Assembly (NCBI RefSeq): GCF_030813495.1
Contig: NZ_JAUSUI010000001.1
Coordinates: 372,001 to 436,000 of the forward strand
DNA: 64,000 nt
Direction: 5' to 3'
DNA from: Ancylobacter polymorphus
GTDB lineage: Bacteria; Pseudomonadota; Alphaproteobacteria; Rhizobiales; Xanthobacteraceae
Under the pieces are notes generated by a model that saw only the letters and a list, made by a program, of their open reading frames with translations, did no database searches and was not told the origin of the DNA. Of the stretch, positions 45,939-61,128 are shown piece by piece. Made by a program: the position numbers and the translations under genes. Within the stretch, counting starts at the first letter, position 1. The number at the start of each line of letters is the position of its first letter.

Positions 45939-47702
45939 CTATTTCGGCGCACCCGCCCGGCGCTCGTGACGGTTGAAGGCATTTCCTTCCGCCCATTCAC
46001 CGTCGTCGAGATAGGGAAACTGGTCATGGATCGGGCGCCCCATCTCGACCTTCGGCTCGATCGGCGTGCGCGGGTCGAGAATGATGTCGAGCAGCCGGAG
46101 CCCTTCGGGGGCCAGCATCTCCGGGCGGATGTCGCTGGGCCGTTCGATGCGGTGGTAGTCGATGCCATAGGCGGCTGCGATACGGCCGAAATCCGGCTGA
46201 CTGTACCCGGTGGCTGTCGCGTGATGGCGACCGGCGAGATAGGCGTCCTGAAACTGCTTGATGATGCCGTAGCCGGCATTGTTCATGACGATGATGGTCA
46301 TGTCGGTGCCGTAATGCACCGCGGTCTGCAGTTCCTGCAGATTGACCTGGAAGCCTCCGTCGCCGGTCATGCAGACCACCTGCCGCTCCGGCGCCGTCAA
46401 CTTGGCACCAATCGCGGCGGGTAGCGCGTAACCCATGGGCGAGTTGCCGCCCGCGGTGAACAGCGCCTGTCCGGTGCGATGGAACGCCTGGAATGCCCAG
46501 CAGACGGCGGCGCCGGTATCGTTCACCACCACCGCGTCGCGCGCGACAAGCGCATTGATCCGACGGATCGCCTCATAGGGCGACTGGCTACCGTTCGCCT
46601 CGGCGAATGTGCTGCGGCATTTGCCGACATAGCGCTCCTGCATCAACCCCACATGATCGAGCCAGGCGTTATTCGCCTCGGGCAAGGCGACCTGCCGCAG
46701 CACGGCCGGCAGGTGCTTGAAATCGAGCTGCTCGCAGACATAGCCGTCGGCCGCGTATTTCGCGAGCTCCTCGGCGTCGACGTCCAGCACGATCACCCGC
46801 GCGTCGGGGGCGAAGGTCGCCGGGTTCCCGGTGCGCTGACGGTTGTCGAGCCGGCTTCCGAGCACGAGCAGGGCGTCGCAATTCTGGATCAGGAAATTCC
46901 CGCCCCGATTGCCGTAGACCCCTACGGTGCCGCAGAAGCCGGGAAGATCGTGGTCGATAGAGGTGGCGCCCGCCCAGCTCGACACCACGGGAAGGCCGCT
47001 CGCGCGGACCCACGCCTCCACCTCCCGCTCGACCCCGGCCAATCCGACGCCGGCGCCCCAATAGAGAAGAGGGCGCCTGGCGCCTTCCAGCGCCCGCGTC
47101 ACCGTCGCGGCGATGCGGGCCAGTTCCTCCTCATGTGGCGGAAGGGAAGGAGGTGATGGCAGGGGAGAAAAGGCACCCATCTCGGCCTGCTGCAGGTCCA
47201 TCGGCACGTCGACGAGAACCGGCCCCATCCGCCCGGTCGTCGCCTCGCGATAGGCGACCTCCAGCTCGCGCCGAAGGTCCTCGGGGGTATGAACCTGCAC
47301 CGCGTATTTGGTGACAGGCCGGGCCATCTCGACGATCTTCGTCTCCTGAAAGCCGACCTGACGGGGAGCCGCACTGCCGAGGCGCCGGCTCTCGCGCAGA
47401 TTCACCTGCCCGGTGATGTGCAGCGACGGGATGGAATCGAAATAGGAGCAGGCGATGCCCGTCAGCAGATTGGTGGCGCCGGGGCCCGATGTGGCCATCG
47501 TCGCCCCCACCGTGCCGTTCACCCGCCACACCGCGTCCGCCGCCATGGCCGCCGCCTGCTCATGCTGCATGCAGACATAGTCGATGTCGTCGCGTCGCCC
47601 GATGGCGTCGATCATGAAGGTGGCGGCGCCCCCGGTCATCAGGAAGACATGGCGTATGCCCTTGCTGGCGAGGAAAGCGGCGATGTACTCGGCTCCGGTC
47701 AT
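45939..47702 (-). CDS. Acetolactate-synthase-like thiamine-diphosphate enzyme (YerE-like candidate)
   Basis: A 587-residue ThDP enzyme. The activating Glu is in CMQHEQAAAMAADAV (about residue 48), the central domain is VGLAGVEREVEAW onward, and the ThDP motif is CMTGDGGFQVNLQELQT to VMNNAGYG. In this locus it lies with rfbF, rfbG and rfbH, the same setting as YerE. That enzyme transfers a two-carbon unit from pyruvate to CDP-4-keto-3,6-dideoxyhexose. A housekeeping acetolactate synthase is less likely because no small subunit follows. ATGA overlap with gtrB. Confidence 0.8.
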   Translation of the reverse strand: MTGAEYIAAFLASKGIRHVFLMTGGAATFMIDAIGRRDDIDYVCMQHEQAAAMAADAVWRVNGTVGATMATSGPGATNLLTGIACSYFDSIPSLHITGQVNLRESRRLGSAAPRQVGFQETKIVEMARPVTKYAVQVHTPEDLRRELEVAYREATTGRMGPVLVDVPMDLQQAEMGAFSPLPSPPSLPPHEEELARIAATVTRALEGARRPLLYWGAGVGLAGVEREVEAWVRASGLPVVSSWAGATSIDHDLPGFCGTVGVYGNRGGNFLIQNCDALLVLGSRLDNRQRTGNPATFAPDARVIVLDVDAEELAKYAADGYVCEQLDFKHLPAVLRQVALPEANNAWLDHVGLMQERYVGKCRSTFAEANGSQSPYEAIRRINALVARDAVVVNDTGAAVCWAFQAFHRTGQALFTAGGNSPMGYALPAAIGAKLTAPERQVVCMTGDGGFQVNLQELQTAVHYGTDMTIIVMNNAGYGIIKQFQDAYLAGRHHATATGYSQPDFGRIAAAYGIDYHRIERPSDIRPEMLAPEGLRLLDIILDPRTPIEPKVEMGRPIHDQFPYLDDGEWAEGNAFNRHERRAGAPK

Positions 47703-48700
47703 GGCTCGCTCCCCGGATGGGCCGGCTGATCTGTCTTTGTCCCGCCCGCTGCGGCGACAGCCTCGCCGAAATTGAGGCGCTCCCGCTCGAAAACCACGGG
47801 TTTCTGGCGCACGCGGGCATAGATCGCCAGCACATATTCGCCGATGAGCCCCATGAAGAACAGCTGGACCCCGCCGAAAAAGAACAGCGCCACGATCAGC
47901 GTGAAGATGCCGGGTTCGGCGAGCCGCTGGTAAAACAAGAGGCCGACTAGGAGGTTGACGATGGAATAGAGGACGCTCAGCCCGGCGAGAACAAAGCCGG
48001 CGAAAAGCCCGATCCGCAACGGCGCGGTGGTGAAAGAGGTAATCCCGTTCATGCCCTGGTCGAACAGGGCGGACAGGCGGTTCTTCGAGAGGCCGCGCTT
48101 GCGCGCCCGCCAGCGATAGGGAACGCCCACCGCCCGGCCGCCGCATTCAAACGTCATCATGCGCATGAACGGATAGGTGTCGTCGATGCGCCGCATCGAA
48201 TCCACCACGCGTCGGTCGACCAGCTGAAAATCGCCAACCCCCGGGGGTATGTCGAACTCCGAGAAGCGCGTCAGCGCGCGGTAATAGACCTGACGAAGAG
48301 TGCGCATCGACCAGCTCTCGTCGCGGGTCGCCCGGATGCCATAGACGATCTCGTAGCCCTGCTCCCACAGACGTACGAACTCGGGCAAGAGCTCAGGCGG
48401 ATCCTGGAGATCGGCCGGCAGGAAAATGAGCACCGCATCGCCGGACGTCGCCATGACGCCGTTATAGGTGTTACGGAGCGGCCCGAAATTGCGGGCGTTG
48501 ACGATGACCCTGACGGACGGATCCTCATCTGCCAACCGGCGCAGGATCTCTCCCGTCGCATCGGTCGACGCATTGTCGCAGAAAATGTGCTCCCGCTCAT
48601 AGCCGGGCAGATGTTCGTCGAAGATGGCCCGCACGGTCGCATAGCATTCGGCAACGTTGTCTTCCTCGTTGTAACAAGGGGTGACGACGGAGATCTTCAT
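47699..48700 (-). CDS. GtrB-like undecaprenyl-phosphate glycosyltransferase
   Basis: A 333-residue GT2 enzyme from ATG 48700: KISVVTPCYNEEDNVAECYA, DNASTDATGEIL, FLPADLQDPPELL (DxD), then two C-terminal transmembrane helices (LRIGLFAGFVLAGLSVLYSI and FTLIVALFFFGGVQLFFMGL). It adds a sugar to undecaprenyl phosphate on the cytoplasmic face for flipping by GtrA. ATGA overlaps on both sides. Probably used to add a side sugar to the polysaccharide. Confidence 0.88.
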   Translation of the reverse strand: MKISVVTPCYNEEDNVAECYATVRAIFDEHLPGYEREHIFCDNASTDATGEILRRLADEDPSVRVIVNARNFGPLRNTYNGVMATSGDAVLIFLPADLQDPPELLPEFVRLWEQGYEIVYGIRATRDESWSMRTLRQVYYRALTRFSEFDIPPGVGDFQLVDRRVVDSMRRIDDTYPFMRMMTFECGGRAVGVPYRWRARKRGLSKNRLSALFDQGMNGITSFTTAPLRIGLFAGFVLAGLSVLYSIVNLLVGLLFYQRLAEPGIFTLIVALFFFGGVQLFFMGLIGEYVLAIYARVRQKPVVFERERLNFGEAVAAAGGTKTDQPAHPGSEP

Positions 48701-49131
48701 GGGGCCCCCCGGAAGACGACAAGACGGTTCCCTAGGAACGAGAGAACCACGACCGCAGGCAAAACAAGCAATTGCCCCAACAGCGGCGCCACGCCCGCCG
48801 CGACCAGCAGTTCGAGCGCACCGAGATTGAGTGCGAAGGTCAGAGCATAGAGGCCGACGAACAGCGGCAGGCGGCTCCACCGACGGTTTGCGAAGACCAA
48901 TCGGCCGGTCGTGACGAAATTGAACAGCACGCCCAGAACGGTCGCGATCAGCAGGGCGAGCCTGTGGTCGCCCGACAGCAGGAAGAGCACGGCGAAGAGC
49001 GAATAGCCGACCAGCGTGTTGAGCCCACCGACGAGCACGAAGCGGACGAACTGCGCCAGCCTTCCCTGACGCATTGCGGCGGAGGCAGACGGGAAGTTGA
49101 TGTGCCGGAACATGCTCATCGTCGGCCTCAT
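48697..49131 (-). CDS. GtrA-like lipid-linked sugar flippase
   Basis: About 144 residues with four transmembrane helices: FVRFVLVGGLNTLVGYSLFA, ALLIATVLGVLFNFV, LFVGLYALTFALNLGALELL and VLPAVVVLSFLGNRLVVF. This is a GtrA family protein that translocates undecaprenyl-phosphate-linked sugar. The start is given at ATG 49131 because of ATGA overlap; ATG 49119 and 49113 are alternatives. Partner of GtrB encoded next. Confidence 0.85.
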   Translation of the reverse strand: MRPTMSMFRHINFPSASAAMRQGRLAQFVRFVLVGGLNTLVGYSLFAVLFLLSGDHRLALLIATVLGVLFNFVTTGRLVFANRRWSRLPLFVGLYALTFALNLGALELLVAAGVAPLLGQLLVLPAVVVLSFLGNRLVVFRGAP

Positions 49132-50075
49132 CCGTTCCGTGAGTCGACAGCGCAATGGTCAGGCCCTTGTGAGCTGTACCACCGCAGGGTGGAGGACAGC
49201 CCCTCCGCCAGGGTCAGGCGCGGCCGCCAGCCGGTGGCGCGGTGGAGGCGGCCGATGTCCGCCTGCAGATGCATGACTTGTTCAGGCCGGAAGGGCAGCG
49301 CGCCGAGATCGAGCGGCAAGGCGGGATCGATGAGGTCCCGCAACAGCGCCACCGTGTCCACGAGTGGCGGCGCCTCGCCCGAGCCGAGATTGAACGGCCC
49401 GGCTGCTGCCTGCGCCGCAGCCACGGCGACAATCGCGGCGGCCGCATCGTCCACGTGGAGAAAGTCCCACTTCTGGGTGCAGGCGGTGAGGGGAGGGCAC
49501 TCACCCGCCAGAAGGCCCCGCATCAGGGTGGGGATGAGAAAGGAGGGATTGTCGCGCGGGCCATAGGCACAGAACAGCCGAATCCACGCCCAGCGCACGC
49601 CGGCGCGGACACAAATCTGTTCCGTTGCGAGCGCGGCGGCCAGCTTCGCCACACCGTAGAGCGAGGTCGGACGGGTGGGATGGGTCTCGTCGGCCGCCCC
49701 GGTCATCGGACCATATTCGGCCTGCGAGCCGATGCCGATGAAGGCACCCGCGCCGACCTCGGACGCCAGCATGGCGAGATCGGCGGCGAACACGGCATTG
49801 CGCAGCTGCGCCGGAGTGTCCCGTCCCGCACCGCTCACATCCGACCACCCGGCGTGAATGACGACTTCCGGCGCAAAGGCGGAAAGCGGCGCGCGCAGGC
49901 TGTCCACATCCTCAAGCGATCCATGGATCGGCGTAAGTGAGCCCGCCACATCCCCCAGGCGCGCGCGGTCCGTGGCCGGCCGCACCAGCGCTGCGACCTC
50001 GTGGCCGGCAGCGACGAGCTGGCGCGCCGTGGGCCGGCCGAGGAAGCCGCTTGTGCCGGTCATGAAGACGCGCAT
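49128..50075 (-). CDS. NAD-dependent epimerase/dehydratase (SDR), nucleotide-sugar reductase candidate
   Basis: 315 residues from ATG 50075. The extended-SDR signature MRVFMTGTSGFLGRPTARQL (Rossmann) and catalytic YGVAK are present, with HAGWSDVSGAG and DFLHVDDAAAA. In the CDP-dideoxyhexose context it may reduce the 4-keto group (RfbJ/CDP-abequose-synthase-like) or act after the ThDP enzyme (YerF-like). The sequence alone does not decide. It lies 12 bases after rfbH. Confidence 0.75.
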   Translation of the reverse strand: MRVFMTGTSGFLGRPTARQLVAAGHEVAALVRPATDRARLGDVAGSLTPIHGSLEDVDSLRAPLSAFAPEVVIHAGWSDVSGAGRDTPAQLRNAVFAADLAMLASEVGAGAFIGIGSQAEYGPMTGAADETHPTRPTSLYGVAKLAAALATEQICVRAGVRWAWIRLFCAYGPRDNPSFLIPTLMRGLLAGECPPLTACTQKWDFLHVDDAAAAIVAVAAAQAAAGPFNLGSGEAPPLVDTVALLRDLIDPALPLDLGALPFRPEQVMHLQADIGRLHRATGWRPRLTLAEGLSSTLRWYSSQGPDHCAVDSRNG

Positions 50076-50087
50076 GGCCGATGCCAC

Positions 50088-51416
50088 CTAACCTCGCACG
50101 AAGCTGCGGATGGTATCGACCATATAGTCGATGGCGGGATCGCCGAGCCCCGGATAGACACCGACCCAGAACGTCCGGTTCATCACGGCGTCACTGTTGG
50201 CAAGGGACCCGACAGCGCGATGCGGGCGCCCCGCCATATAGGGTTGCCGCAGCAGGTTGCCCCCGAAAAGCTGCCGCGTGCCGATGCGGTGCGCATCTAG
50301 GTGCATCACCAGCGCCCGTCTGTCGAAAGGCGCGCCTTCCCGAACCGTGAGAGGGAAGCCGAACCAGGAAGGATCGGAGTGGGCCGTGGCCTCGGGCAGA
50401 ATGAACACGTCCTCAAGCTCGGCGAGCCCTGCCTTGAGGCTGTTGAAATTGTGCCGGCGACTGGCGATGAAATCGTCCAGTCGATCGAGCTGCGAGAGGC
50501 CCACGGCAGCCTGCATGTCGGTGATCTTCAAATTATAGCCGACATGCGAATAGATGTACTTGTGGTCATAGCCGTGCGGGAGGTCGCCAAGCTGCCAGTC
50601 GAAGCGCTTGTGGCAGGTATTGTCCGCCCCCGGCGCACAGTAGCAGTCACGCCCCCAGTCCCGGATCGACTCCATCGCCCGACGGAGCCGAGCATTGCCG
50701 GTGAAGACCGCGCCGCCTTCGCCCATCGTGATATGATGAGCGGGATAGAAGCTCAACGTGCCGACATCACCGAAGGTCCCGACCGGCTGGCCACGATAGG
50801 TGGCGCCAAGAGCATCGCAGCAGTCTTCGACAACCCAGAGATTATGCCGACGGGCGATATCCATGACCGCATCAAGGTCGAACGGGTTGCCGAGCGTGTG
50901 GGCCACCACGATGGCACGCGTCCGCTCGCTGAGCGCCGCCTCGATCTGATCGGGTTCGATATTGTAGGTCGGCAGGTGGATATCCACGAAGACCGGCACC
51001 AGGCCGTTCTGTAGCACCGGGTTGATCGTCGTGGGAAAGCCGGTGGCGCAGGTGATCACCTCGTCGCCCGGCTTGAGCGCCCGCTCCCCCAGCAGTGGAG
51101 AAGTCAGCGCCGAAACCGCCACGAGATTGGCTGACGAGCCGGAGTTCACCGTGAGCACATGTTTCCTCTGCACCACCTTGGCCAGCCGCGCCTCAAAGGC
51201 GGTGTTGAAACGCCCGGTTGTCAGCCAGAAGTCCAGCGCGCTGTCGACGAGGCTCTGCATGTCCCGCGCATCGAACACACGCCCCGAAACCGGAACCGGC
51301 GATCGGCCGGCCGCGAAGGGCGACGGGGCGTGTCGTGCGTCGTAATAGGCCTCGACCAGCGCCATGATCTGCGCGCGCAATTCCTCGGCGGTCGCAGCCG
51401 GCGTTTCGCTCACCAT
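50088..51416 (-). CDS. rfbH: CDP-6-deoxy-L-threo-D-glycero-4-hexulose-3-dehydrase (E1)
   Basis: A 442-residue PMP-dependent dehydrase of the DegT/DnrJ/EryC1 fold. The usual PLP lysine is replaced by His in [16 protein letters not shown], as in E1. A cysteine cluster for the [2Fe-2S] centre is in [19 protein letters not shown]. It removes the 3-hydroxyl of CDP-4-keto-6-deoxyglucose; the reductase E3 is needed but not present in this window. The stop is 12 bases before the SDR start. Confidence 0.93.
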
Positions 51417-51453: not shown

Positions 51454-52527
51454 TCACGCGGCCCGTCGCGCGGCGGAGTACGCGTCGATTTGGGCATGCG
51501 TGAACGCTCGCATGTCCGCTCCCGCCCGGCACGCCTTGAACCAGTCCACGGTCAGCGCCACCGCCTCGGCCAGATCGAGGGCCGGCTGCCAGCCCAACTG
51601 CGTACGCGCCTTGGTACAGTCGAGCGTCAGGGTTCGGGCCTCATGCAGGCCGGTCGTGTCACCCTCGACCCGCCACGCCGCCCCTTCACCCCAACGCCGC
51701 ACGAGTTCGTCCGCCAACCTTGATACCGGCACCTCACTGTCGGTCGCAGGACCGAAATTCCATGCCTGCGCGAAGTCCGAGGCGCGCGGACCCAGCAGCG
51801 CGTCCGCCAGCATGAGATAACCGAACAGCGGTTCGAGCACATGCTGCCAGGGCCGCAGCGCCGCAGGATTGCGCACCGCCAGCGCACGTCCCTGGCTGAA
51901 GGCGCGAACCGCATCCGGCACCAGACGATCGACGGCCCAGTCGCCGCCACCGATCACGTTGCCTGCCCGAACCGTCGCCAACGCCGTACCGCCCGCCTTG
52001 AAATAGGAGGCGCGAAAAGCCTGAGCGACCAGTTCCGTACAGCCTTTGCTGTTGCTGTAGGGGTCGTGGCCGCCCATGGGATCGCTTTCGCGATAAGCCC
52101 ACATCTGCTCACGGTTCTCGTAGCATTTGTCGCTGGTCACGATGACGGCAGCCCGCACGCCCCCCCGCCGGCGGATGACATCGAGCACATTCGCCGTCCC
52201 CATCACATTGGTCGAGTAGGTTCGCAGCGGATCGTCATAGGAGGGACGAACCAGCGATTGCGCCGCCATATGGATGACGACCTCCGGCGCGGCCCGATCA
52301 AACGCGGCTTCAACGGCCGCGAGATCGCGAACATCGCCGATGATGCTGTCGAGCGTGCGGGCGTGGGAGAGGTGGGCAAACAGGCTGGGTTCGGTCGGCG
52401 GCTCCAGCGCGAAGCCGGTGACAATGGCGCCCAGTCGCTCCAGCCAAAGGCCGAGCCATGCTCCCTTGAAGCCGGTGTGCCCGGTGAGCAGCACGCGGCG
52501 TCCCCGCCATGCAGCATCGAGGCTCAT
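51454..52527 (-). CDS. rfbG: CDP-glucose 4,6-dehydratase
   Basis: A 357-residue extended SDR from ATG 52527. RVLLTGHTGFKGAWLGLWLE is the NAD-binding motif, DPYSNSKGCTELVAQAF carries Tyr/Lys, and AAVIVTSDKCYENREQ supplies the catalytic Asp/Lys region. It forms CDP-4-keto-6-deoxyglucose. ATGA overlap with rfbF. Length and motifs match the RfbG family. Confidence 0.93.
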   Translation of the reverse strand: MSLDAAWRGRRVLLTGHTGFKGAWLGLWLERLGAIVTGFALEPPTEPSLFAHLSHARTLDSIIGDVRDLAAVEAAFDRAAPEVVIHMAAQSLVRPSYDDPLRTYSTNVMGTANVLDVIRRRGGVRAAVIVTSDKCYENREQMWAYRESDPMGGHDPYSNSKGCTELVAQAFRASYFKAGGTALATVRAGNVIGGGDWAVDRLVPDAVRAFSQGRALAVRNPAALRPWQHVLEPLFGYLMLADALLGPRASDFAQAWNFGPATDSEVPVSRLADELVRRWGEGAAWRVEGDTTGLHEARTLTLDCTKARTQLGWQPALDLAEAVALTVDWFKACRAGADMRAFTHAQIDAYSAARRAA

Positions 52528-53300
52528 GCCCACACCTTCCAGGGAGCCGCGCCGGACGTCCAGCGCTCCTGCAAAAGCCGGCGGTCGCGCGGCGTGTCCA
52601 TAGGTTGCCAGAAGCCGTCGTGAAGGAAGGCCTTCAACTCGCCCTGCGACGAGAGAGACTCAAGGGGTTCCTGCTCCCATGCCGTGGAATCGTCCGAAAT
52701 CAGGTCGAGAACCTTGGGCGACAGCAGGAAAAAGCCGCCATTGATCCGGCCCACCTCGTTCGGTGGCTTCTCGCGGAACGAGGCGACACGCCCATCGGCG
52801 TCGATCTCAAGGACTCCGAAGCGGCTTGGCGGCGTCACCGCCGCGATCGTCGCGAGCCGGCCATGGGCCTGATGAAAGGCCAGTTCCGCCTTGAGGTCGA
52901 TGTCGGCGACGCCGTCGCCATAGGTCATGGCGAAGCACGGCTCGCCACGCAGATAGGAGGCCACCCGCTTGAGCCGGCCTCCGGTATTCGTGCCGTCGCC
53001 GGTATCAACCAACGTGACGCGCCACGGCTCTGCGGTTTCCCTGTGCACCTCCATCGAATTTCCTGCCATGTTGAAGGTTACATCGGACATGTGCAGGAAA
53101 TAATTCGAAAAATACTCTTTGATGACGTAGCCGCGATGGCCCAGACATATGATGAACTCATTGAAGCCGTGGGCAGAGTAAATCTTCATGATGTGCCACA
53201 GGATCGGGCGCCCACCGATTTCGATCATCGGCTTCGGCACGACCGTGGATTCGTCGCTGATGCGCGTGCCAAATCCTCCTGCGAGTATAACGACCTTCAT
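52524..53300 (-). CDS. rfbF: Glucose-1-phosphate cytidylyltransferase
   Basis: A 258-residue nucleotidyltransferase from ATG 53300. VILAGGFGTRISDESTVVPK and PMIEIGGRPILWHIMKIYS define the CTP-binding region; YGDGVADIDL gives the metal-binding Asp. It makes CDP-glucose, the entry to CDP-dideoxy sugars. It starts at the TGATG overlap with the giant fusion gene. Length and motifs match RfbF. Confidence 0.95.
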   Translation of the reverse strand: MKVVILAGGFGTRISDESTVVPKPMIEIGGRPILWHIMKIYSAHGFNEFIICLGHRGYVIKEYFSNYFLHMSDVTFNMAGNSMEVHRETAEPWRVTLVDTGDGTNTGGRLKRVASYLRGEPCFAMTYGDGVADIDLKAELAFHQAHGRLATIAAVTPPSRFGVLEIDADGRVASFREKPPNEVGRINGGFFLLSPKVLDLISDDSTAWEQEPLESLSSQGELKAFLHDGFWQPMDTPRDRRLLQERWTSGAAPWKVWA

Positions 53301-56300
53301 CAGGCACAAATCCCTTCGATAGCCTGCACGAGTTGCCTGCGCATCGTCTCACGGGAGAAGTGCTCCTGCGCAAAGGCCTGCTGCGCGCTCGCCTGCCTTG
53401 CCCACAGATCGCCATCCGTAGCGAGCTGGCGTACCGCCTCTGCCAGTTCCGCAGGGTTCGCGGTGACGGCACAGATGGTCTCCAGCCCCGGCATGCCTTG
53501 GGCCCCGACCGGCGTCGTAACCAGGGGCAACCCATGCTGCAGCGCTTCCACCACTTTGGATTTAACCCCCGCTCCAATCCGTAACGGCACAATGGCGACG
53601 CGAGAGGTCCGGTAATACCGCGTCAGATCTTCGGCGCTTACCCAACCGCGAACGGTCACGCGCTTGGAGGCGAGAGCCTGAACCTCCGCGGTCGGATATG
53701 AGCCGACAAGCGACAGGTGCAAATCGGGCATGACTTGCCAGATCAGCGGCATCACCTCCTTCACGAGCCATATGGCGGCATCGACATTCGGCGAATGCGC
53801 AAAGCCGGCCACGAAGAGCAGCCCCTCCCGGGTCTCGAAGTCGGGAGTCTGTGTTGGCAATTCGACGATGTAGGGAGAGACAAGCTGAACGGGAGTGGAA
53901 GGCTCCATAGCCTTCACCACCGCCACCTCGTCAGCGGAGGGATAGAGCACGCAGTCCATCTGCGACCAGATCCACCGCTCCTCCTGCTCCTGCGCCTGTG
54001 CCGCCGCAAGGTCTTCCGGCTGTCCCGTGGCCTGATGGGCAAGCCGGAGCCTGCGATGATGCAGGTCGTGCCCGTAATAGACCGAGCGGGCCCTGGTATT
54101 GTTCCGGACGGTGTCCATGTATTTCGCGGTGATGTGGGGCCGGCTGAACAGCACGGCGTGCAACTGCCCGCCAAACTGCTTCATCCACTCATTGAAACCT
54201 GCCAGTGTGGCGAGCGGCCCGTAGAGAATCTCGATGCCCATGTCCTGGATCAGAGGGGCGTAGTCAGGGTGCAGATAGCCGTTCTCAGTCAGGAACTTCA
54301 CCACATAGCCGGCGCTTAGAAGCTCGGAGAGGAACGCCACCATGGTTCGTGAACCGGCGTCTCGGTCCGGTTCCGGCAGATAGTGATCGATGACCAGCAC
54401 GACCCTGCCGGTAAAGTTGCGTTCGCGGGCGCGAAACACATTCACCGCGTTGGGATAGTGGCGGGCTTCCAGCTCCGCGCGCCACCGCTCGACCAGCCGT
54501 TGCTGGTTCCGAACCTGATAGGACTTGATGCCTTCGGACGTGTCGGTGCCGTGGGAGACACCCTCATGGTGGATGACGACCGAGCGCGGCTGGTACAACA
54601 CCTTCCGAGACGCTGCCCGCGCCTTGAACGCCAGATCGGAGTCCTCGCAATAAGCCGGCGCGTAGGCGATGTCGAAGCCGCCCTGGTCTCGGAAGAACGC
54701 CGCGTCGACGAGGATCGAGGCGCCGGAACAATAGTCGACCTCGCGGGTGTAATTGTACTTGGGCAGCGCCGGATCGTCATAGCGCCCGAAATTCCAGGCC
54801 GAACCATCCCGCCAGACGATGCCGCCGGCTTCCTGCAGACGCCCGTCTGGATAGACCAGCTTGGAGCCGACAATGGCCGCCGAGGGGTGCAAAGCGAAGG
54901 TGCGAAGCAGCGTGTCGAGCCAGCCCTCGGTCACCTCCGTGTCGTTGTTGAGGAAGTGAAGGTAGCGTCCGCGCGCCTGGCCGGCGGCCTTGTTGCAATT
55001 ATTGATAAAGCCCAGATTGGTCTCATTTTCCAGAAAGACCAGGCCGGGAATACGGCGCAGCAACCCCAGCGCCGGGTCTTGAGAGGCGTCGTCGATGACA
55101 ATCACCTCGTAGGTCGCCGCGGGCCGGAAACGGTGCATCGACGCCAGGCAGCGCAACGTATAGTCGACTTTGCCATAGGTCGGGATAATCACCGAGACGA
55201 GAGGTGTGTCTTCGCCAATGCCGAAGTCGAGTCCTTCTGCCATCGGCAGCAAATCGACCCCCAGTCCGGCCGCCATCGCCGGCCGCGCGGCAGGCGACGT
55301 GCGGATCCTGAAAGCCGACTTCGCCTGCCCACGCAGTGCCCGAAGCCGCGGCTTCACCGCGCGGTACACTGCCGTCCTGCGAATCCGGTCTCTCATCCAG
55401 CGCCTCAGCGTGCGCAAGGGCCGCCGACGCATCTCCTCGATCTGGCGCGCATAGGACGCGTGGAGCTCATTCAGCGAACTCAGATGCGCGGCTTCAAATT
55501 GCTCGCGCTCAAATCTGCGGTCGCCCTCAAAACGCGCAAGGTCGGCCCTGAGGCGCGACGCTTCCGCCCCTTCATTCTCCTGTGCGCAAGCGAGTTCAGC
55601 CTTCAGGCGGGCGACCTCTGCCGCAGCCGTCTCCCGCGCATGGACGAGTTGGGCTTCAAGACGCACCGCCACTGCGGCACCGACCGCTCGCGTATGGGTG
55701 AGTTCGGCCGTCAGGCGGGCAATCTCAGCCTGAGCCGCCGCCTGCGTCTGTAGCAGATCGGCGCGAAGTCGCTCGATCTCGGTCCCCTCAAGAGACGGCG
55801 GGCTGTTTTCGGCCGCCATCGGTGCCGCCGCACCCGCACGCTGGTCCCTGAACTCGGCGTTGAGGCGGTCAATCTCCGCCTGCCCCGTCCGCCGCGCATC
55901 GGTCAGTTCGGCATTGAGCCGGTCGATTTCCGCCTGCCCAGCCCCACGGACGGCGGCGAGTTCAGCGTTGAGGCGGTCAATCTCTGCCTGCCCCTTGCGA
56001 CGAACGTCGGTAAGCTCGTCGTTCAGCCGACCGATTTCGGACACGCTGGCCCGCACGCTTTCCTCGGCGCTGAGGCGGGCGCCTTCGAGGGCGCGAAAGT
56101 GGCTCGGCGAATGGAGCACGCTGTGGCTCAGGGCCGGCAATTTTTCGTTTGAAGCGAGCGCGATCAGATAGGGCGCCTCGGGCACGCCCGTGCAGGAGGA
56201 GAAGCAGGTCCCATCATCGCTAATGAAGCCGGCGACACCCCGCGCCCCCGTCGCCTCGTCGCCCAGGATCACCGATCCCCACAAGGCACGCTGTTCGAAC

Positions 56301-56869
56301 AGCGCAATATGCGCAAAACGCGTCGCCAACAGGTCGCGCAGTTCCTGGCGGTCCAGTTCACGCACGTGGAAGTCATTCTTGAAATCCCGCTTCTCCGAAT
56401 AGGTGACGCGGTCCGGGGAAGAAATCACCAGCATCCCGCCGGGGCGCAGGACACGGAGGACCTCGCCGACGAAGGCCGGCTGGTCCTCAAAGTGCTCCAG
56501 CGTCTCGAAGCTGACGACAACATCGACCGACTGCGCCTCAAGCGGCAGCGCCTCGGCCTTACCCTCGCGGAACGATACCCTCGCCGTCGCATGGTTGCGC
56601 GCCGCGAAAGCGACGGAAGCGGCGTCAATATCGACCCCCACCACGGAACGCGCGACCTGGCCAAGGAGATGGCTTCCATAGCCCTCTCCGCTCGCCACAT
56701 CGAGAACGTCTTTGCCGCTGCAGAACTGAAGGGCGAAGAGATACCGGTGATAGTGCTCGTGCTGAATCTCACCCACCAGACCGGAAACATAGCGCTCCCC
56801 GGTGAAAGCCATGCTCTCGTCGGGAGACGGGAACCGGAACGTGGGAGGTCGGTGGGAAGACTCGGTCAT
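53300..56869 (-). CDS. Giant fusion: SAM methyltransferase, coiled-coil, GT2 and GT4-type glycosyltransferases
   Basis: A 1189-residue protein. Residues about 20-200: methyltransferase with [15 protein letters not shown]. Residues about 275-480: long coiled coil containing near-identical 18-residue units ([12 protein letters not shown]...). Residues about 550-800: GT2 with [37 protein letters not shown] and EDSDLAFKA. Residues about 820-1180: GT4-like with [17 protein letters not shown] and [20 protein letters not shown] 56869 is chosen; an inner ATG at M20 is possible. It probably builds and caps the O-polysaccharide, the coiled coil acting as a length ruler as in WbdD; that is inference. 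Confidence 0.88.
55861..56040 (-). repeat. Tandem 54-bp repeats encoding 18-residue coiled-coil units
   Basis: Copies start at 55861, 55915 and 55969 with exact 54-base spacing; a diverged fourth copy follows toward 56040. Each unit encodes (R/G)[17 protein letters not shown]. The units are in frame with the fusion gene, so copy-number changes would lengthen or shorten the coiled coil without frameshift. Confidence 0.85.
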
Positions 56870-56932
56870 GGATGCAATTCTAGATAGCGAGTGCGGAGTA
56901 TTCGGACACAGGAGTCGCCTGCCATCCAGCAA

Positions 56933-57937
56933 CTATGGATCGTCAGCGGGCATCAGCCTAGCGTCGCCCCCACGCCCATCCGACCCGAGCCGCGACATGG
57001 ATTTCGACGTGTTGGCATCCACAACACCATAATGACGCAACGGCACCAACACATCAGTCTTCAGGCCGAGGACGCTGCCGCCCCCTTCGCCGACGAAGAC
57101 ACATCCGAATTTTCCCGACGCCAGTTGCCGGAGCATCACGTCGCGATCTTCGACCGTCAGCATCTCCACATAGCCGGGCCCCTTCAGCGGCGACCGTCCC
57201 TGGGCAGACGCCTAGTACAAGCCCTGCCGCTGCGCAAGGATGACCCATTCGTCCCCCGGCCGCGGTTGGCGGCGAATGAAGTCCAGCTCGTCTGCCACGA
57301 GAGGCGAGGGAGGCGGACCCGGCCGTCGAGCATCCGCACGGCATCGCGCCAGAGCGGGCCGATGTTCTGGATGAACGGAATGCCGCAGAACATGAGAACC
57401 GCCAACGTCAGCGCGGGCATGGCGAGTTGGACAGGACCCAGCTCGCCGGCGCGTACCATTCGACCCGTTCGGTCCGGCAAGACGGTCGCGATCGCCAGTG
57501 CCGGCCAACACATCGTGACGCGATTGAAGATGTGCGAACGGCCCTGATAATAGACGAACAGCCCCCATCCGAGCGCGCTGAGATAGAACACGACATCCAC
57601 GCACGGGGAGTTCGCCCCCGGCGCCATTCGGTCAGCGCAAACAGCAGGCCCAGAAGAGGGGAAGCATGTTCATGCCTAGACGGTAGAAGAGGTTGGGATA
57701 GGTCATCAACCACTGTCCGTGAGGCGCCTGTGACGAGACGGCCGTGAAATAGATGGCAGTGGCCGCGATCGTCAAAGACAGCACCGTCAGGAGCAGGAGC
57801 AGCGCCCGCATTTCGGGAGAGCTGCGTCTCCCACCGCCCTTGGCGCTGCCGGCCGCCGAATCGCTTTCGCCGCTAGCCGACACAGACGTGTCGGGCGAAC
57901 TGTCTGCCTTAGAGCCATAGTCCATGGCCGAGTTCAT
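56933..57937 (-). pseudogene. Decayed polytopic membrane protein gene
   Basis: Homologous text appears in successive frames: from ATG 57937, LLLLLTVLSLTIAATAIYFT then NLFYRLGMNMLP; in a second frame LLGLLFALTEWRRG; in a third VVFYLSALGWGLFVYYQGRS and LAMPALTLAVLMFCGIPFIQ; back in the first frame DELDFIRRQPRPGDEWVILA. A TAG at 57212-57214 interrupts this, followed by LASGKFGCVFVGEGGGSVLG to the stop at 56933. At least two frameshifts and one stop are present. The layout (several helices then a soluble C-terminus) suggests a membrane glycosyltransferase; that is a guess. Confidence 0.65.
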
Positions 57938-58240
57938 CAGCCCCCGTTTGCGCAACCTGCTTTCCTTCCCATGGGCGGGCTCGGACGGCTCTCCTTCAGT
58001 CTCTATCTCACGCATTTCCCGATCATGTTCACGATTGGCATCGCCCTCTTCCTTCAGCTGGAGGCATGGCTCGGCTATATGCCGGCGGCGTTGATCGCGA
58101 GCCAGACTAGCATCGGGATCAGCCTTCTGGTTGCGATACACTTTGAGCGCTACATTGACCGCCCCTCGCTTCGCTTGTCCCACAAAGTGGGTGGACACAT
58201 GACCATGCCGGCAGACCTTCCCGCCCAGCAGGCTGCCTGA
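57924..58240 (+). pseudogene. C-terminal remnant of an OafA-type acyltransferase
   Basis: FISPRLRNLLSFP in one frame, then MGGLGRLSFSLYLTHFPIMF and IGIALFLQLEAWLGYMPAAL in another, which match the last helices of acyltransferase-3 proteins. The frame shifts near 57970, and the rest of the gene is gone. It abuts the decayed membrane gene on the opposite strand near 57924-57937, marking an old rearrangement junction. A short expressed product from ATG 57971 cannot be excluded. Confidence 0.6.
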
Positions 58241-58241
58241 C

Positions 58242-59462
58242 TTGATTGATCAGGCCGTCATCCTCTGCGGGGGCATGGGCACCCGCCTCGGCGCGCTGAC
58301 CGAAGCGACGCCCAAACCCATGCTGGAAGTCGCCGGGCGCCCCTTCCTCTTTCACCTCATCCAGGAAGTGGCCCGCTATGGCGTGAAGCACATTGTGCTG
58401 CTCGCCGGCCGTTTCGGTGAGCAGATCGTGACGGCGTTCCATGGACGTCGGCTGTTCGGCGCGCAGGTCGAGGTGCTTGTGGAGCCTGGACCACTCGGAA
58501 CGGGCGGCGCGTTGCGTTTCGCGGCCGATCGTCTCGCGCCGCAGTTCCTGCTGTTGAACGGCGACTCCTGGATCGATGCCGACCTCGCACGCTTTGGACT
58601 TGGCTGGCACAAGGCAAGGGAGCGGGATCCAGAGGTCAAGGCCCAGATGCTGCTTCACCGCGTGCCCGACACGGCGCGTTTCGGCCGGGTCACGCTGAAA
58701 GCAGACCGGGTCGTCGGGTTCGAGGAGAAGGGCGCCCCGCTCGCGGATGCCTCAGGCCTCATCAGCGCCGGCGTCTATGCAATCGACCGGGCGATTCTTG
58801 ATTTGATCCCGCCCCATGCCGCCTGCTCCCTGGAGCGGGACGTACTTCCACGCCTCGTGGCGGAGGGACGCGTCGTCGCCTCGCAGGCGCGCGAGGGAGC
58901 GTATTTCGTCGACATCGGGATTCCCGAGACCTTCGCGCAGGTACAAGTGGATCTTGTCGCCGCCCGTACGCGTCCGGCCGTATTCTTCGACCGGGATGGG
59001 ACGCTCAATCGCGATGGCGGCTACACGCATCGAGTCGAGGATCTCGTCTGGATGCCGCAGGCACGGGAGGCCATCGCTCACATCAACGAGCTTGGCTATT
59101 TCGTCTTCGTGGTCACGAACCAGGCTGGCATCGCCCGCGGCTATTATGACGAGAACGCGGTTACGGCCTTTCATGACGCCATGCAGGTCTCCCTGGCCTC
59201 TGTTGGCGGCCATGTGGATGCGTTCGAGTGGTGTCCGCACCATCCCGAGGCCGTTATTCCCGCCTACCGCCGCGATTGCCCGCGCCGTAAGCCCGGCCCG
59301 GGTATGCTCCTCGACCTGATGGCGGCCTGGCCGGTGGATTCGCAGCGAAGCTTCCTCATCGGCAACAGCTCCGCCGACATGGAAGCCGCACGTGCTGCGG
59401 GCCTCCGCGCGCTGCGTTACGAAGGCGGCTCTGTCGTCGACATCGCCGCCCAATTGCTGTAA
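58242..59462 (+). CDS. Fusion of heptose-1-phosphate guanylyltransferase (HddC) and heptose-bisphosphate phosphatase (GmhB)
   Basis: 406 residues starting at TTG 58242. Residues 1-240: nucleotidyltransferase with ILCGGMGTRLGALTEATPKP and LNGDSWIDADL, as in HddC, which makes GDP-D-glycero-alpha-D-manno-heptose. Residues 245-406: HAD phosphatase with AVFFDRDGTLNRDGGY (nucleophile Asp), VTNQAGIARGYY and CPHHPE zinc-binding segment, as in GmhB. The two are usually separate proteins. They act at consecutive ends of one pathway, which also has hddA and gmhA nearby. Confidence 0.88.
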   Translation: MIDQAVILCGGMGTRLGALTEATPKPMLEVAGRPFLFHLIQEVARYGVKHIVLLAGRFGEQIVTAFHGRRLFGAQVEVLVEPGPLGTGGALRFAADRLAPQFLLLNGDSWIDADLARFGLGWHKARERDPEVKAQMLLHRVPDTARFGRVTLKADRVVGFEEKGAPLADASGLISAGVYAIDRAILDLIPPHAACSLERDVLPRLVAEGRVVASQAREGAYFVDIGIPETFAQVQVDLVAARTRPAVFFDRDGTLNRDGGYTHRVEDLVWMPQAREAIAHINELGYFVFVVTNQAGIARGYYDENAVTAFHDAMQVSLASVGGHVDAFEWCPHHPEAVIPAYRRDCPRRKPGPGMLLDLMAAWPVDSQRSFLIGNSSADMEAARAAGLRALRYEGGSVVDIAAQLL

Positions 59463-59473
59463 GTGGTACCTGA

Positions 59474-60469
59474 ATGTGGATTAGTAAAACTCCCCTTCGC
59501 GCCAGTTTTTTTGGCGGCGGCACCGACTACCCCTCCTATTTTCGCTCCAGTCCGGGCGCCGTACTAGGTGGTACCATCGATAAATATATCTATATCCAGG
59601 CGCTTCCTCTCTCGCCGATCGCTGAGCAGAGGTTTCGCGTGACCTACCGCACGACGGAGAGTGTGCAGCGGATCGAAGACATCCAGCATCCGGTGGTCCG
59701 CGAAAGCCTGAAGCTCTACGGCTGGGAGTGCCCGCTGAACATCGCGACCATGTCGGATTTGCCAGGCAATACGGGACTTGGCAGTTCGTCAGCCTTTACT
59801 GTCGGCTTCATCAACCTGCTTCACCGCATGCGCGGTGTCCAACTGACGCGCTATGAACTGGCGCGGCAGGCCATTCGCATGGAGCAGGACATTCTCCAGG
59901 AAAATGTGGGCGTCCAGGATCAGATCCACGCCGCCTTCGGTGGCCTCTCGCGCTATGAGTTTTCCGGTGAGACCATTGCCATCGAGCCGCTGACGCTCAC
60001 CACGAGCCGTCTGGCGACCCTGAATGCCTCGCTGCTGCTCGTCTACACCGGCGCGCAACGTCGTGCCGTGGATGCGCTTGAGAGCCAGCACAGGCGCACC
60101 GTCAGCGGCGACAATGCCGCCTATCTCGCTGAAATGTATGAGATGACGCGCACGGGCACGCGCCTGTTGGAAGAAGCCGGCGATGACATGGCGAGTATCG
60201 CTCGCTTCGGCCATCTCCTGGACGAAGGCTGGCGCCTGAAACGCAAACTGGGGGAGGGCGTGACCAGCCCGATCATCGACGAGTTGTATCGTCGCGGGAA
60301 GGAACTCGGCGCGCATGGCGGCAAGCTCCTGGGCGCCGGCGGCGCCGGCTTCATCCTCCTTATCGTCGAACCCGGCCGCCACCCTCTGTTCGTGGAGCAT
60401 TTCGGCGCCGGCAATGTCATTCCGATTTCGCTTACCGATGGCGGATCGACAGTGTCACATTTCGCCTGA
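59474..60469 (+). CDS. hddA: D-glycero-alpha-D-manno-heptose-7-phosphate kinase
   Basis: A 331-residue GHMP kinase. ISKTPLRASFFGGGTDYPSY at the N-terminus, SDLPGNTGLGSSSAFTVGF for ATP binding, and GGKLLGAGGAGFILLIV at the C-terminus. It phosphorylates heptose 7-phosphate at C1 in the GDP-heptose branch (HldE is the ADP-branch analogue). 11 bases after the HddC-GmhB gene, so co-transcribed. Confidence 0.92.
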   Translation: MWISKTPLRASFFGGGTDYPSYFRSSPGAVLGGTIDKYIYIQALPLSPIAEQRFRVTYRTTESVQRIEDIQHPVVRESLKLYGWECPLNIATMSDLPGNTGLGSSSAFTVGFINLLHRMRGVQLTRYELARQAIRMEQDILQENVGVQDQIHAAFGGLSRYEFSGETIAIEPLTLTTSRLATLNASLLLVYTGAQRRAVDALESQHRRTVSGDNAAYLAEMYEMTRTGTRLLEEAGDDMASIARFGHLLDEGWRLKRKLGEGVTSPIIDELYRRGKELGAHGGKLLGAGGAGFILLIVEPGRHPLFVEHFGAGNVIPISLTDGGSTVSHFA

Positions 60470-60543: not shown

Positions 60544-61128
60544 CTATCGACCGGGCGGGCAAAGCGCCGCTTCGGCGATGCCGCACATCACGTGCCCGAT
60601 CGCGATATGAGCCTCCTGGATATGGCTGGTCTGTTCATGCGGCACGGCCACCAGCACATCCGCGAGCGCGCCCAGCGCACCGCCGCTCGCCCCGGTAAAG
60701 GCGACGCCTGTGATGCCCATCTGCCGGGCGGCCTCGAAAGCCTTCACCACATTCGCGCTGTTGCCACTGGTGGACAATCCGACCAGCACATCGCCCTTGC
60801 GGCCGATGCCACGGACCTGGCGCGCGAAGACATGCTCAAAGCCATAGTCGTTGGCAATCGCCGTCAATGCCGACGTATCCACGGTCAGCGCCAAGGCCGG
60901 CAGAGGAGCGCGATCCGAGAGGAATCGCCCCATCAGTTCGGCCGCAAGGTGCTGCGAATCGGCTGCCGAGCCCCCATTGCCGCAAAACATCACCTTGCCA
61001 CCGCTCGACAAGGCATCGATCCAGGTGTCGGCCGCCCTGCGGACATCGGCCGCCATGGAGTCGAGACGGCCTAAAAGTCGAGCGGATTCAGCAAAATAGG
61101 CGCGGATGCTGTCGGTCGAATTGATCAT
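60544..61128 (-). CDS. gmhA: Sedoheptulose-7-phosphate isomerase
   Basis: A 194-residue SIS-domain enzyme. MFCGNGGSAADSQHLAAELM carries the catalytic and zinc-ligand region; ALTVDTSALTAIANDYG and LVGLSTSGNSANVV follow, with EQTSHIQEAHIAIGH giving Glu/His ligands. It makes D-glycero-D-manno-heptose 7-phosphate. Convergent with hddA, so it has its own promoter although it acts first in the same pathway. Confidence 0.95.
   Translation of the reverse strand: MINSTDSIRAYFAESARLLGRLDSMAADVRRAADTWIDALSSGGKVMFCGNGGSAADSQHLAAELMGRFLSDRAPLPALALTVDTSALTAIANDYGFEHVFARQVRGIGRKGDVLVGLSTSGNSANVVKAFEAARQMGITGVAFTGASGGALGALADVLVAVPHEQTSHIQEAHIAIGHVMCGIAEAALCPPGR

Follow-up and report, generated by a model that had tools for sequence, protein, structure and literature searches.

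The 64,000-nucleotide stretch of Ancylobacter polymorphus DNA analysed here (contig NZ_JAUSUI010000001.1, positions 372,001 to 436,000; hereafter the window) carries on its minus strand a long reading frame at 53300..56869, identified from the list of open reading frames (ORFs) and Pfam, whose product is a candidate for assembling, measuring and capping a glycan within one chain. The frame starts with an ATG at 56869, stops at 53300-53302 and encodes 1,189 amino acids; an alternative upstream TTG start would give 1,210. Three enzyme families match above their curated Pfam cut-offs, Methyltransf_11 at residues 56-149 (E 8.5e-22), Glycos_transf_2 at residues 559-683 (E 1.5e-21) and Glyco_trans_1_4 at residues 1017-1152 (E 2.4e-23), and no kinase family is found in the protein by Pfam at E 0.1. 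The preliminary description of this DNA had proposed a 1,189-residue chain at this position, leaving its strand unstated, with the order methyltransferase, coiled coil, glycosyltransferase family 2 (GT2) and glycosyltransferase family 4 (GT4), and had named structure prediction as a check. The reading frame and Pfam bear out the chain, Pfam and AlphaFold2 give the same order, and AlphaFold2 models a methyltransferase fold, two coil helices and the GT2-GT4 pair.

The N-terminal module (residues 34-252; 56114..56770, minus strand) is a class I S-adenosylmethionine (SAM)-dependent methyltransferase domain by Pfam, alignment and AlphaFold2. Residues D57, G61, G63, G65, E38, H39, R42 and Y43 are invariant across 26 aligned sequences, and the first four presumably form a glycine-rich motif of the SAM-site type. 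An AlphaFold2 model of residues 1-553 made with 26 aligned sequences (mean pLDDT 79.3) contains the methyltransferase fold, two helices and then shorter helices, with blocks 41-190 mostly above pLDDT 90 and a loop near 200-230 below 65. The nearest folds to the methyltransferase model are many SAM methyltransferases, including RebM and AtmM, and AtmM, by name a D-glucose O-methyltransferase, is also among the single-sequence and profile matches. No molecule named WbdD occurs in the 46 single-sequence matches, the 60 listed of 150 profile matches or the 50 listed of 1,703 fold matches. In the model the methyltransferase ends at residue 252 and the coil starts at 255, which leaves no space for an extra domain and rules out a hidden kinase such as that of ORF6 of Klebsiella pneumoniae O7. 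Because no kinase fits between methyltransferase and coil, the cap is predicted to be methyl rather than methyl-phosphate.

The coil follows as two minus-strand helices defined by AlphaFold2 and repeat analysis, the first at residues 255-348 (55826..56107) and the second at residues 361-482 (55424..55789), separated by a proline-containing break at residues 349-360 (55790..55825; translation and AlphaFold2). It holds nine 18-residue repeats, four in the first helix (277-348) and five degenerate ones in the second (364-453). Lag-18 identity over residues 255-482 is 0.338, compared with a shuffle maximum of 0.19 (2,000 shuffles, best of nine lags each), and a tandem-repeat scan finds the DNA form of the repeat as 2.6 copies of 54 bp at 55854..55994 (no strand assigned). 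Since the hydrophobic period of the coil is 3.56-3.62 residues, each repeat would make about five turns and the coil would be nearly straight, unlike the usual heptad coil. With a helix rise of 1.5 Angstrom per residue, the predicted helices of 94 and 122 residues would extend ~14 and ~18 nm. Exactly at the coil end, residues 481-498 are the protein's top basic amphipathic window, with a net charge of +9, and belong to basic amphipathic helices at residues 481-520 (55310..55429, minus strand; AlphaFold2 and amphipathicity scan) that may contact the membrane.

The C-terminal half of the protein joins a GT2 module of the GT-A fold (residues 555-815; 54425..55207, minus strand; Pfam, alignment, AlphaFold2 and fold search) to a GT4 module of the GT-B fold (residues 816-1186; 53312..54424, minus strand; Pfam, AlphaFold2 and fold search). 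The AlphaFold2 model of residues 549-1189 has a mean pLDDT of 91.5 and a pTM of 0.88. Conserved in GT2 are N93, D95 and E194 (numbering from residue 549), and its near folds are polypeptide GalNAc-transferases; those of GT4 include GDP-mannose-bound PimB', and GDP-mannose users are found among both its near folds and its profile matches.

A few O antigens are known to have their glycan length controlled by a coil (PMC11231755), and WbdD, WbbB and ORF6 of O7 represent the known kind, in which a coil holds a terminator at its far end (PMC11231755; PMC3482155). The comparisons that follow draw on excerpts of the cited papers, and for WbbB and ORF6 the likeness is one of descriptions, order and predicted structure. 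Terminator, ruler and polymerase stand in one chain in WbbB of K. pneumoniae O12 and in ORF6 (PMC11231755). ORF6, like the window's protein, has an N-terminal methyltransferase, a coil and two C-terminal glycosyltransferases, with the terminator far from the polymerase, so the central idea of the preliminary description, that chain growth, length measurement and methyl capping are in one molecule, is already published. The differences are that in ORF6 a kinase and a carbohydrate-binding fold separate methyltransferase and coil, which join directly here; that its two glycosyltransferases are both GT2 modules rather than GT2 and GT4; and that its cluster contains wzm and wzt, whereas no Wzt_C, the cap-reading domain, was found in the genome studied here. 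WbbB likewise combines polymerisation, termination and a coil, with an N-terminal terminator and two C-terminal glycosyltransferases, but its terminator is described as a Kdo transferase (PMC11231755). WbdD of Escherichia coli O9a/O8 shares the N-terminal methyltransferase, the coil and then a membrane-associated amphipathic helix, the last two predicted in our protein, and its O8 form lacks the kinase, as ours does, while the O9a form has one (PMC3482155). Its polymerase WbdA is separate and an ABC transporter is used, in contrast to the GT2 and GT4 that share our chain (PMC3482155; PMC11231755).

The preliminary description had seen a WbdD-like protein joined to its polymerase partners. This stands in part, as the layout is that of WbbB and ORF6 (PMC11231755) and 14 of 29 relatives with a methyltransferase of this type have Wzt_C nearby (see below), but the kinase is missing and Wzt_C is absent from its own genome. 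Strict membership of WbdD was rejected, with no kinase present and the polymerase fused (Pfam, AlphaFold2). By anatomy the protein would work like the coiled-coil terminator kind, of which it is a candidate rather than an established member, since the transporter that goes with this kind was not found here and its control of chain length is a prediction. What sets it apart from the known kind is the lack of a kinase, the GT2-GT4 pair, the 18-residue coil repeat and the lack of an exporter among what was found.

To place the architecture more widely, we searched the own genome, 150 relatives, plasmids, named genomes and samples of the genus (30), family (391), class (385) and phylum (398); these samples overlap and include the own genome, and from the named genomes the 80 most similar of at least 591 relatives were taken. 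The fetched loci contained 143 full GT2-GT4 frames, or 139, window included, after four duplicates (L139, L143, L158, L192) were dropped; also left out were partial matches and loci without a full GT2-GT4 frame (including L182 and L187 from the named genomes, L046 and the frame-broken L061). Around the kept pair the N-terminal module changes: as assigned by profile at 50 bits, which rests on seed similarity, 29 of the 139 are of the methyltransferase type, 12 carry a sulfotransferase, eight a glycosyltransferase and four a pyruvyltransferase, 19 have none (an N-terminal part of < 150 residues) and 67 are other. Identity to the window in aligned subsets of 14 and 22 sequences is 37-53%. Pfam confirms the sulfotransferase in L038, the sole one of the 12 put to it, and the pyruvyltransferase in L040 and L083; in L039 and L041 Pfam gave no pyruvyltransferase match at E 0.001. 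Other methyltransferase families are found by Pfam in L123, L128, L144, L150 and L157, and the tested N-terminal parts of the other class, a minority of the 67, comprise other methyltransferase families, glycosyltransferases and several without a Pfam family. On a FastTree tree of the GT2-GT4 pair, 47 of whose 136 inner branches are open, the methyltransferase label clusters weakly: it takes 22 changes, no fewer than 14 of them forced by the starred branches, against a shuffled mean of 26.8, which suggests frequent exchanges of the end enzyme. These apparently exchangeable end enzymes on one polymerase-and-coil unit are the most interesting part of the analysis and are new here. No pyruvyl- or sulfotransferase-bearing coil terminator is described in the titles and abstract openings among the matches listed, a weak negative with subscription journals mostly outside. 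In Aeromonas salmonicida a sulfotransferase domain lies in a protein of its own next to WbbB, according to an excerpt of PMC4483657. No paper on Ancylobacter lipopolysaccharide (LPS) appeared by title among the matches listed.

Several individual loci add detail. The sulfotransferase-like module replaces the methyltransferase in L038, L082, L125, L126, L129, L133, L170, L174, L194, L196, L199 and L202. HPLFD...NPDV-type repeats precede GT2 in the methyltransferase-type relatives L043, L045, L048, L079 and L103. The methyltransferase is a separate gene adjoining the GT2-GT4 pair in L049, and the own genome holds, at ~598.7-603.2 kb of contig C1 (L054, 9708-14249), a split form of the same idea, a 582-residue methyltransferase-coil paralog followed by a 926-residue GT4-RgpF protein, near a UbiA/HAD-like protein and an FAD-binding protein. 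A 1,136-residue relative occurs in A. oerskovii (NZ_JAHBGB010000006.1) and in genus genome G008 (contig C43). A Lichenihabitans plasmid relative (L061, 14983-19700) is split over several frames, phages gave two partial GT2 matches, and a scan of genome contigs with the protein as a single sequence gave no relative.

Both the coil and the cap-reading exporter could be followed through these classes. A coil-like stretch of at least 40 residues before GT2 is present in 26 of 29 methyltransferase-type, 11 of 12 sulfotransferase, 5/8 glycosyltransferase, 1/4 pyruvyltransferase and 45/67 other proteins and in 3/19 without a module, where its scarcity is partly a matter of definition. The detector behind these counts is home-made, and its 40-residue threshold is also passed by 26 of 139 control parts taken from GT2-GT4 and by 15 of 53 shuffled segments. 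Coil totals in the methyltransferase type range from 0 to 316 residues (window 196), and strong internal repeats have a period of 18 both in the window and in L058 of Pseudodesulfovibrio, of 21 in L135, of 28 in L163 and of 14 in L200. The L058 protein, on a plasmid (5744-9427), has a near-perfect 18-residue coil repeat with a lag-18 identity of 0.80. Wzt_C lies within ~10 kb in 14 of the 29 methyltransferase-type loci versus one of the 19 without a module (Fisher p 0.0016, kinship ignored); in 11 of the 14, from Gammaproteobacteria and Bacillota, the Wzt gene is at most 63 bp away on the same strand. Pfam confirmed the domain in seven of eight neighbouring Wzt-type proteins tested, L084 being the exception. 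The Bacillota proteins directly adjoining a Wzt with Wzt_C are L162, L163, L169, L172, L179 and L200. Such a placement would be expected of a methyl group that ends the chain and is read by the exporter, as in Aquifex aeolicus, where the carbohydrate-binding domain of Wzt reads a methyl cap (PMC9445017, in excerpt), and it supports end-capping at the family level. The O-methyl sugar end that serves as the cap there is what would be expected for our relatives, with the difference that the window's own genome lacks Wzt_C.

Taken together we consider the protein, with a probability of roughly one half, to be a member of the coiled-coil terminator kind that unites glycan assembly in a single polypeptide, its ruler and capping roles being read from anatomy. 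In such a scheme GT2 and GT4 would be placed where the coil comes close to the membrane, anchored by the basic amphipathic helix, and would take turns in adding sugars, although both polymerisation and the order of addition are conjectural. The coil, through its 94- and 122-residue helices, would keep the methyltransferase at the far end, so that the growing chain would meet it once a minimum length was reached, and methylation of the non-reducing end would halt growth. A GDP-heptose-like sugar would probably serve as one donor and, whether directly or indirectly, the CDP-dideoxy branched sugar to which the co-oriented genes described below point as another; export would follow a route without Wzt_C.

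A number of observations weigh against this assembly. The window belongs to the 15 of 29 methyltransferase-type loci without Wzt_C within ~10 kb, and Wzt_C is found in 0/4 pyruvyltransferase, 0/8 glycosyltransferase and 2/12 sulfotransferase loci but in 28/67 unclassified ones; the pyruvyltransferase and glycosyltransferase types thus give no sign of a cap-reading exporter in their loci. Wzm/Wzt in the same organism is a feature of the single-chain type seen in the 14 loci above and not here. No Wzt_C was found in the own genome, where a Wzt without the C-terminal domain is not excluded, and the 30 genus genomes gave none either. Four ABC2_membrane matches exist in the own genome; around the two whose wider surroundings were covered, no Wzm or Wzt appeared by profile. 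To this are added the detector's background noted above, methyltransferase-type relatives without a detected coil (L131, L191) or with just 29 residues (L201), other repeats that replace or come after the coil in some relatives, and the fact that no chain-length data for relatives were found. No paper on Ancylobacter lipopolysaccharide (LPS) appeared by title among the matches listed.

The missing Wzt_C and Wzm are what would be expected of a non-polymerising oligosaccharide builder, which we regard as possible, although somewhat improbable. GT2 and GT4 would each add one residue in the cytoplasm to a lipid A-core, lipid-linked or protein-linked acceptor, the methyltransferase would methylate the last sugar, the product would be exported with its acceptor with no need of Wzm/Wzt, and the coil would be a scaffold for oligomerisation and membrane placement instead of a ruler. 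Consistent with this, Wzt_C is missing from the own and 30 genus genomes, no Wzm-like protein was found in the profiled loci, and other genus members with pyruvyltransferase, methyltransferase or glycosyltransferase modules on the GT2-GT4 pair are likewise without Wzt_C. The branched dideoxy sugar to which the co-oriented genes point belongs to a class often found in side chains or at chain ends, which we also count in its favour. It fits less well with the same architecture standing directly beside a cap-reading Wzt in 11 methyltransferase-type loci, and a 216-residue repeat-built coil would seem long for a mere scaffold.

It is improbable that the methyltransferase instead modifies sugars in each repeat, or nucleotide-linked precursors, with length set elsewhere, for example by Wzz/Wzy. 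The own genome does have two Wzz and three Wzy_C matches, which lie close together on contigs C8 and C9, but these are away from the locus on C1, and the linkage of cap-reading Wzt to methyltransferase-type relatives also argues the other way; Polysacc_synt (PF01943) had no match in this genome. Very unlikely is a Wzm/Wzt-exported O antigen as in WbdD systems whose transporter was missed in the draft assembly: relatives L085, L086, L087, L124 and L140 and the Bacillota members have Wzt next door and the assembly is in 22 contigs, but the genome's listed completeness is 100% and none of the 30 genus genomes has Wzt_C. An artefact, either a long frame open by chance or a fusion created in assembly, suggested by the numerous long antisense frames in the region's ORF list, was ruled out, as all three enzyme domains exceed curated cut-offs and the methyltransferase followed by GT2-GT4 in a single frame is seen again in 28 other proteins of the set.

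Extending the single-chain assembly reading to the relatives, one may tentatively propose, as a rather doubtful generalisation, that a conserved GT2-GT4 polymerase with a coil built from repeats forms the fixed part of a widespread family, to which one or another enzyme for a methyl, sulfate, pyruvate or sugar cap can be attached, and that in Ancylobacter this family runs terminator, ruler and polymerase without a cap-reading ABC exporter. Relatives carry the layout beside a cap-reading Wzt in both Gammaproteobacteria and Gram-positive Bacillota, the exchange of end enzymes would predict sulfate- and pyruvate-ended glycans measured by coils, and the 18-residue repeats would be a natural means to alter a ruler in fixed steps. 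That the genus keeps such a machine without Wzt_C raises the question of what purpose the coil has when no such exporter reads the cap.

The gene is the first in a run of eight, all on the minus strand, that overlap or are separated by short gaps. Next in the run, overlapping its stop, is RfbF, a glucose-1-phosphate cytidylyltransferase (52524..53309, above cut-off), followed by RfbG, a CDP-glucose 4,6-dehydratase (51454..52533), and RfbH, an LPS biosynthesis protein (50088..51416), both above equivalog cut-offs. Profiles then identify an NAD-dependent epimerase/dehydratase (49128..50087) and a GtrA-family membrane protein (48697..49155). The run ends with a GT2 protein like PgfS/ArnC (47699..48880, below cut-offs, its true start probably inside the ORF), putatively a polyprenyl-phosphate sugar transferase, and a TPP-dependent acetolactate-synthase-like enzyme (45939..47702, below the cut-offs of its best matches), for which a YerE-like role is suggested because RfbF, RfbG and RfbH are neighbours. 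YerE acts on a CDP-4-keto sugar of this type (PMC12247030, in excerpt), so that with RfbF-G-H present the run is suggestive of a yersiniose-type branched CDP-3,6-dideoxy sugar, given a YerE-like role of that enzyme.

On the other side of the gene, 56880-58240 holds no clear intact gene and appears decayed, with two minus-strand membrane-protein-like pieces (no Pfam match) and one short plus-strand acyltransferase-3-like piece (below cut-off). Beyond it lie an HddC-like nucleotidyltransferase fused to a GmhB-like phosphatase (58242..59462, plus strand, both below equivalog cut-offs), an HddA-like GHMP sugar kinase (59474..60469, plus strand, below cut-off) and a GmhA-like phosphoheptose isomerase (60544..61128, minus strand, below cut-offs, narrowly for TIGR00441), suggesting a GDP-heptose. 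The HddA-like kinase is found again beside relatives, in 15 of 29 methyltransferase-type loci (window included), 3/4 pyruvyltransferase, 5/8 glycosyltransferase and 4/12 sulfotransferase loci, and in 19 of 67 other loci versus two of the 19 without an N-terminal module.

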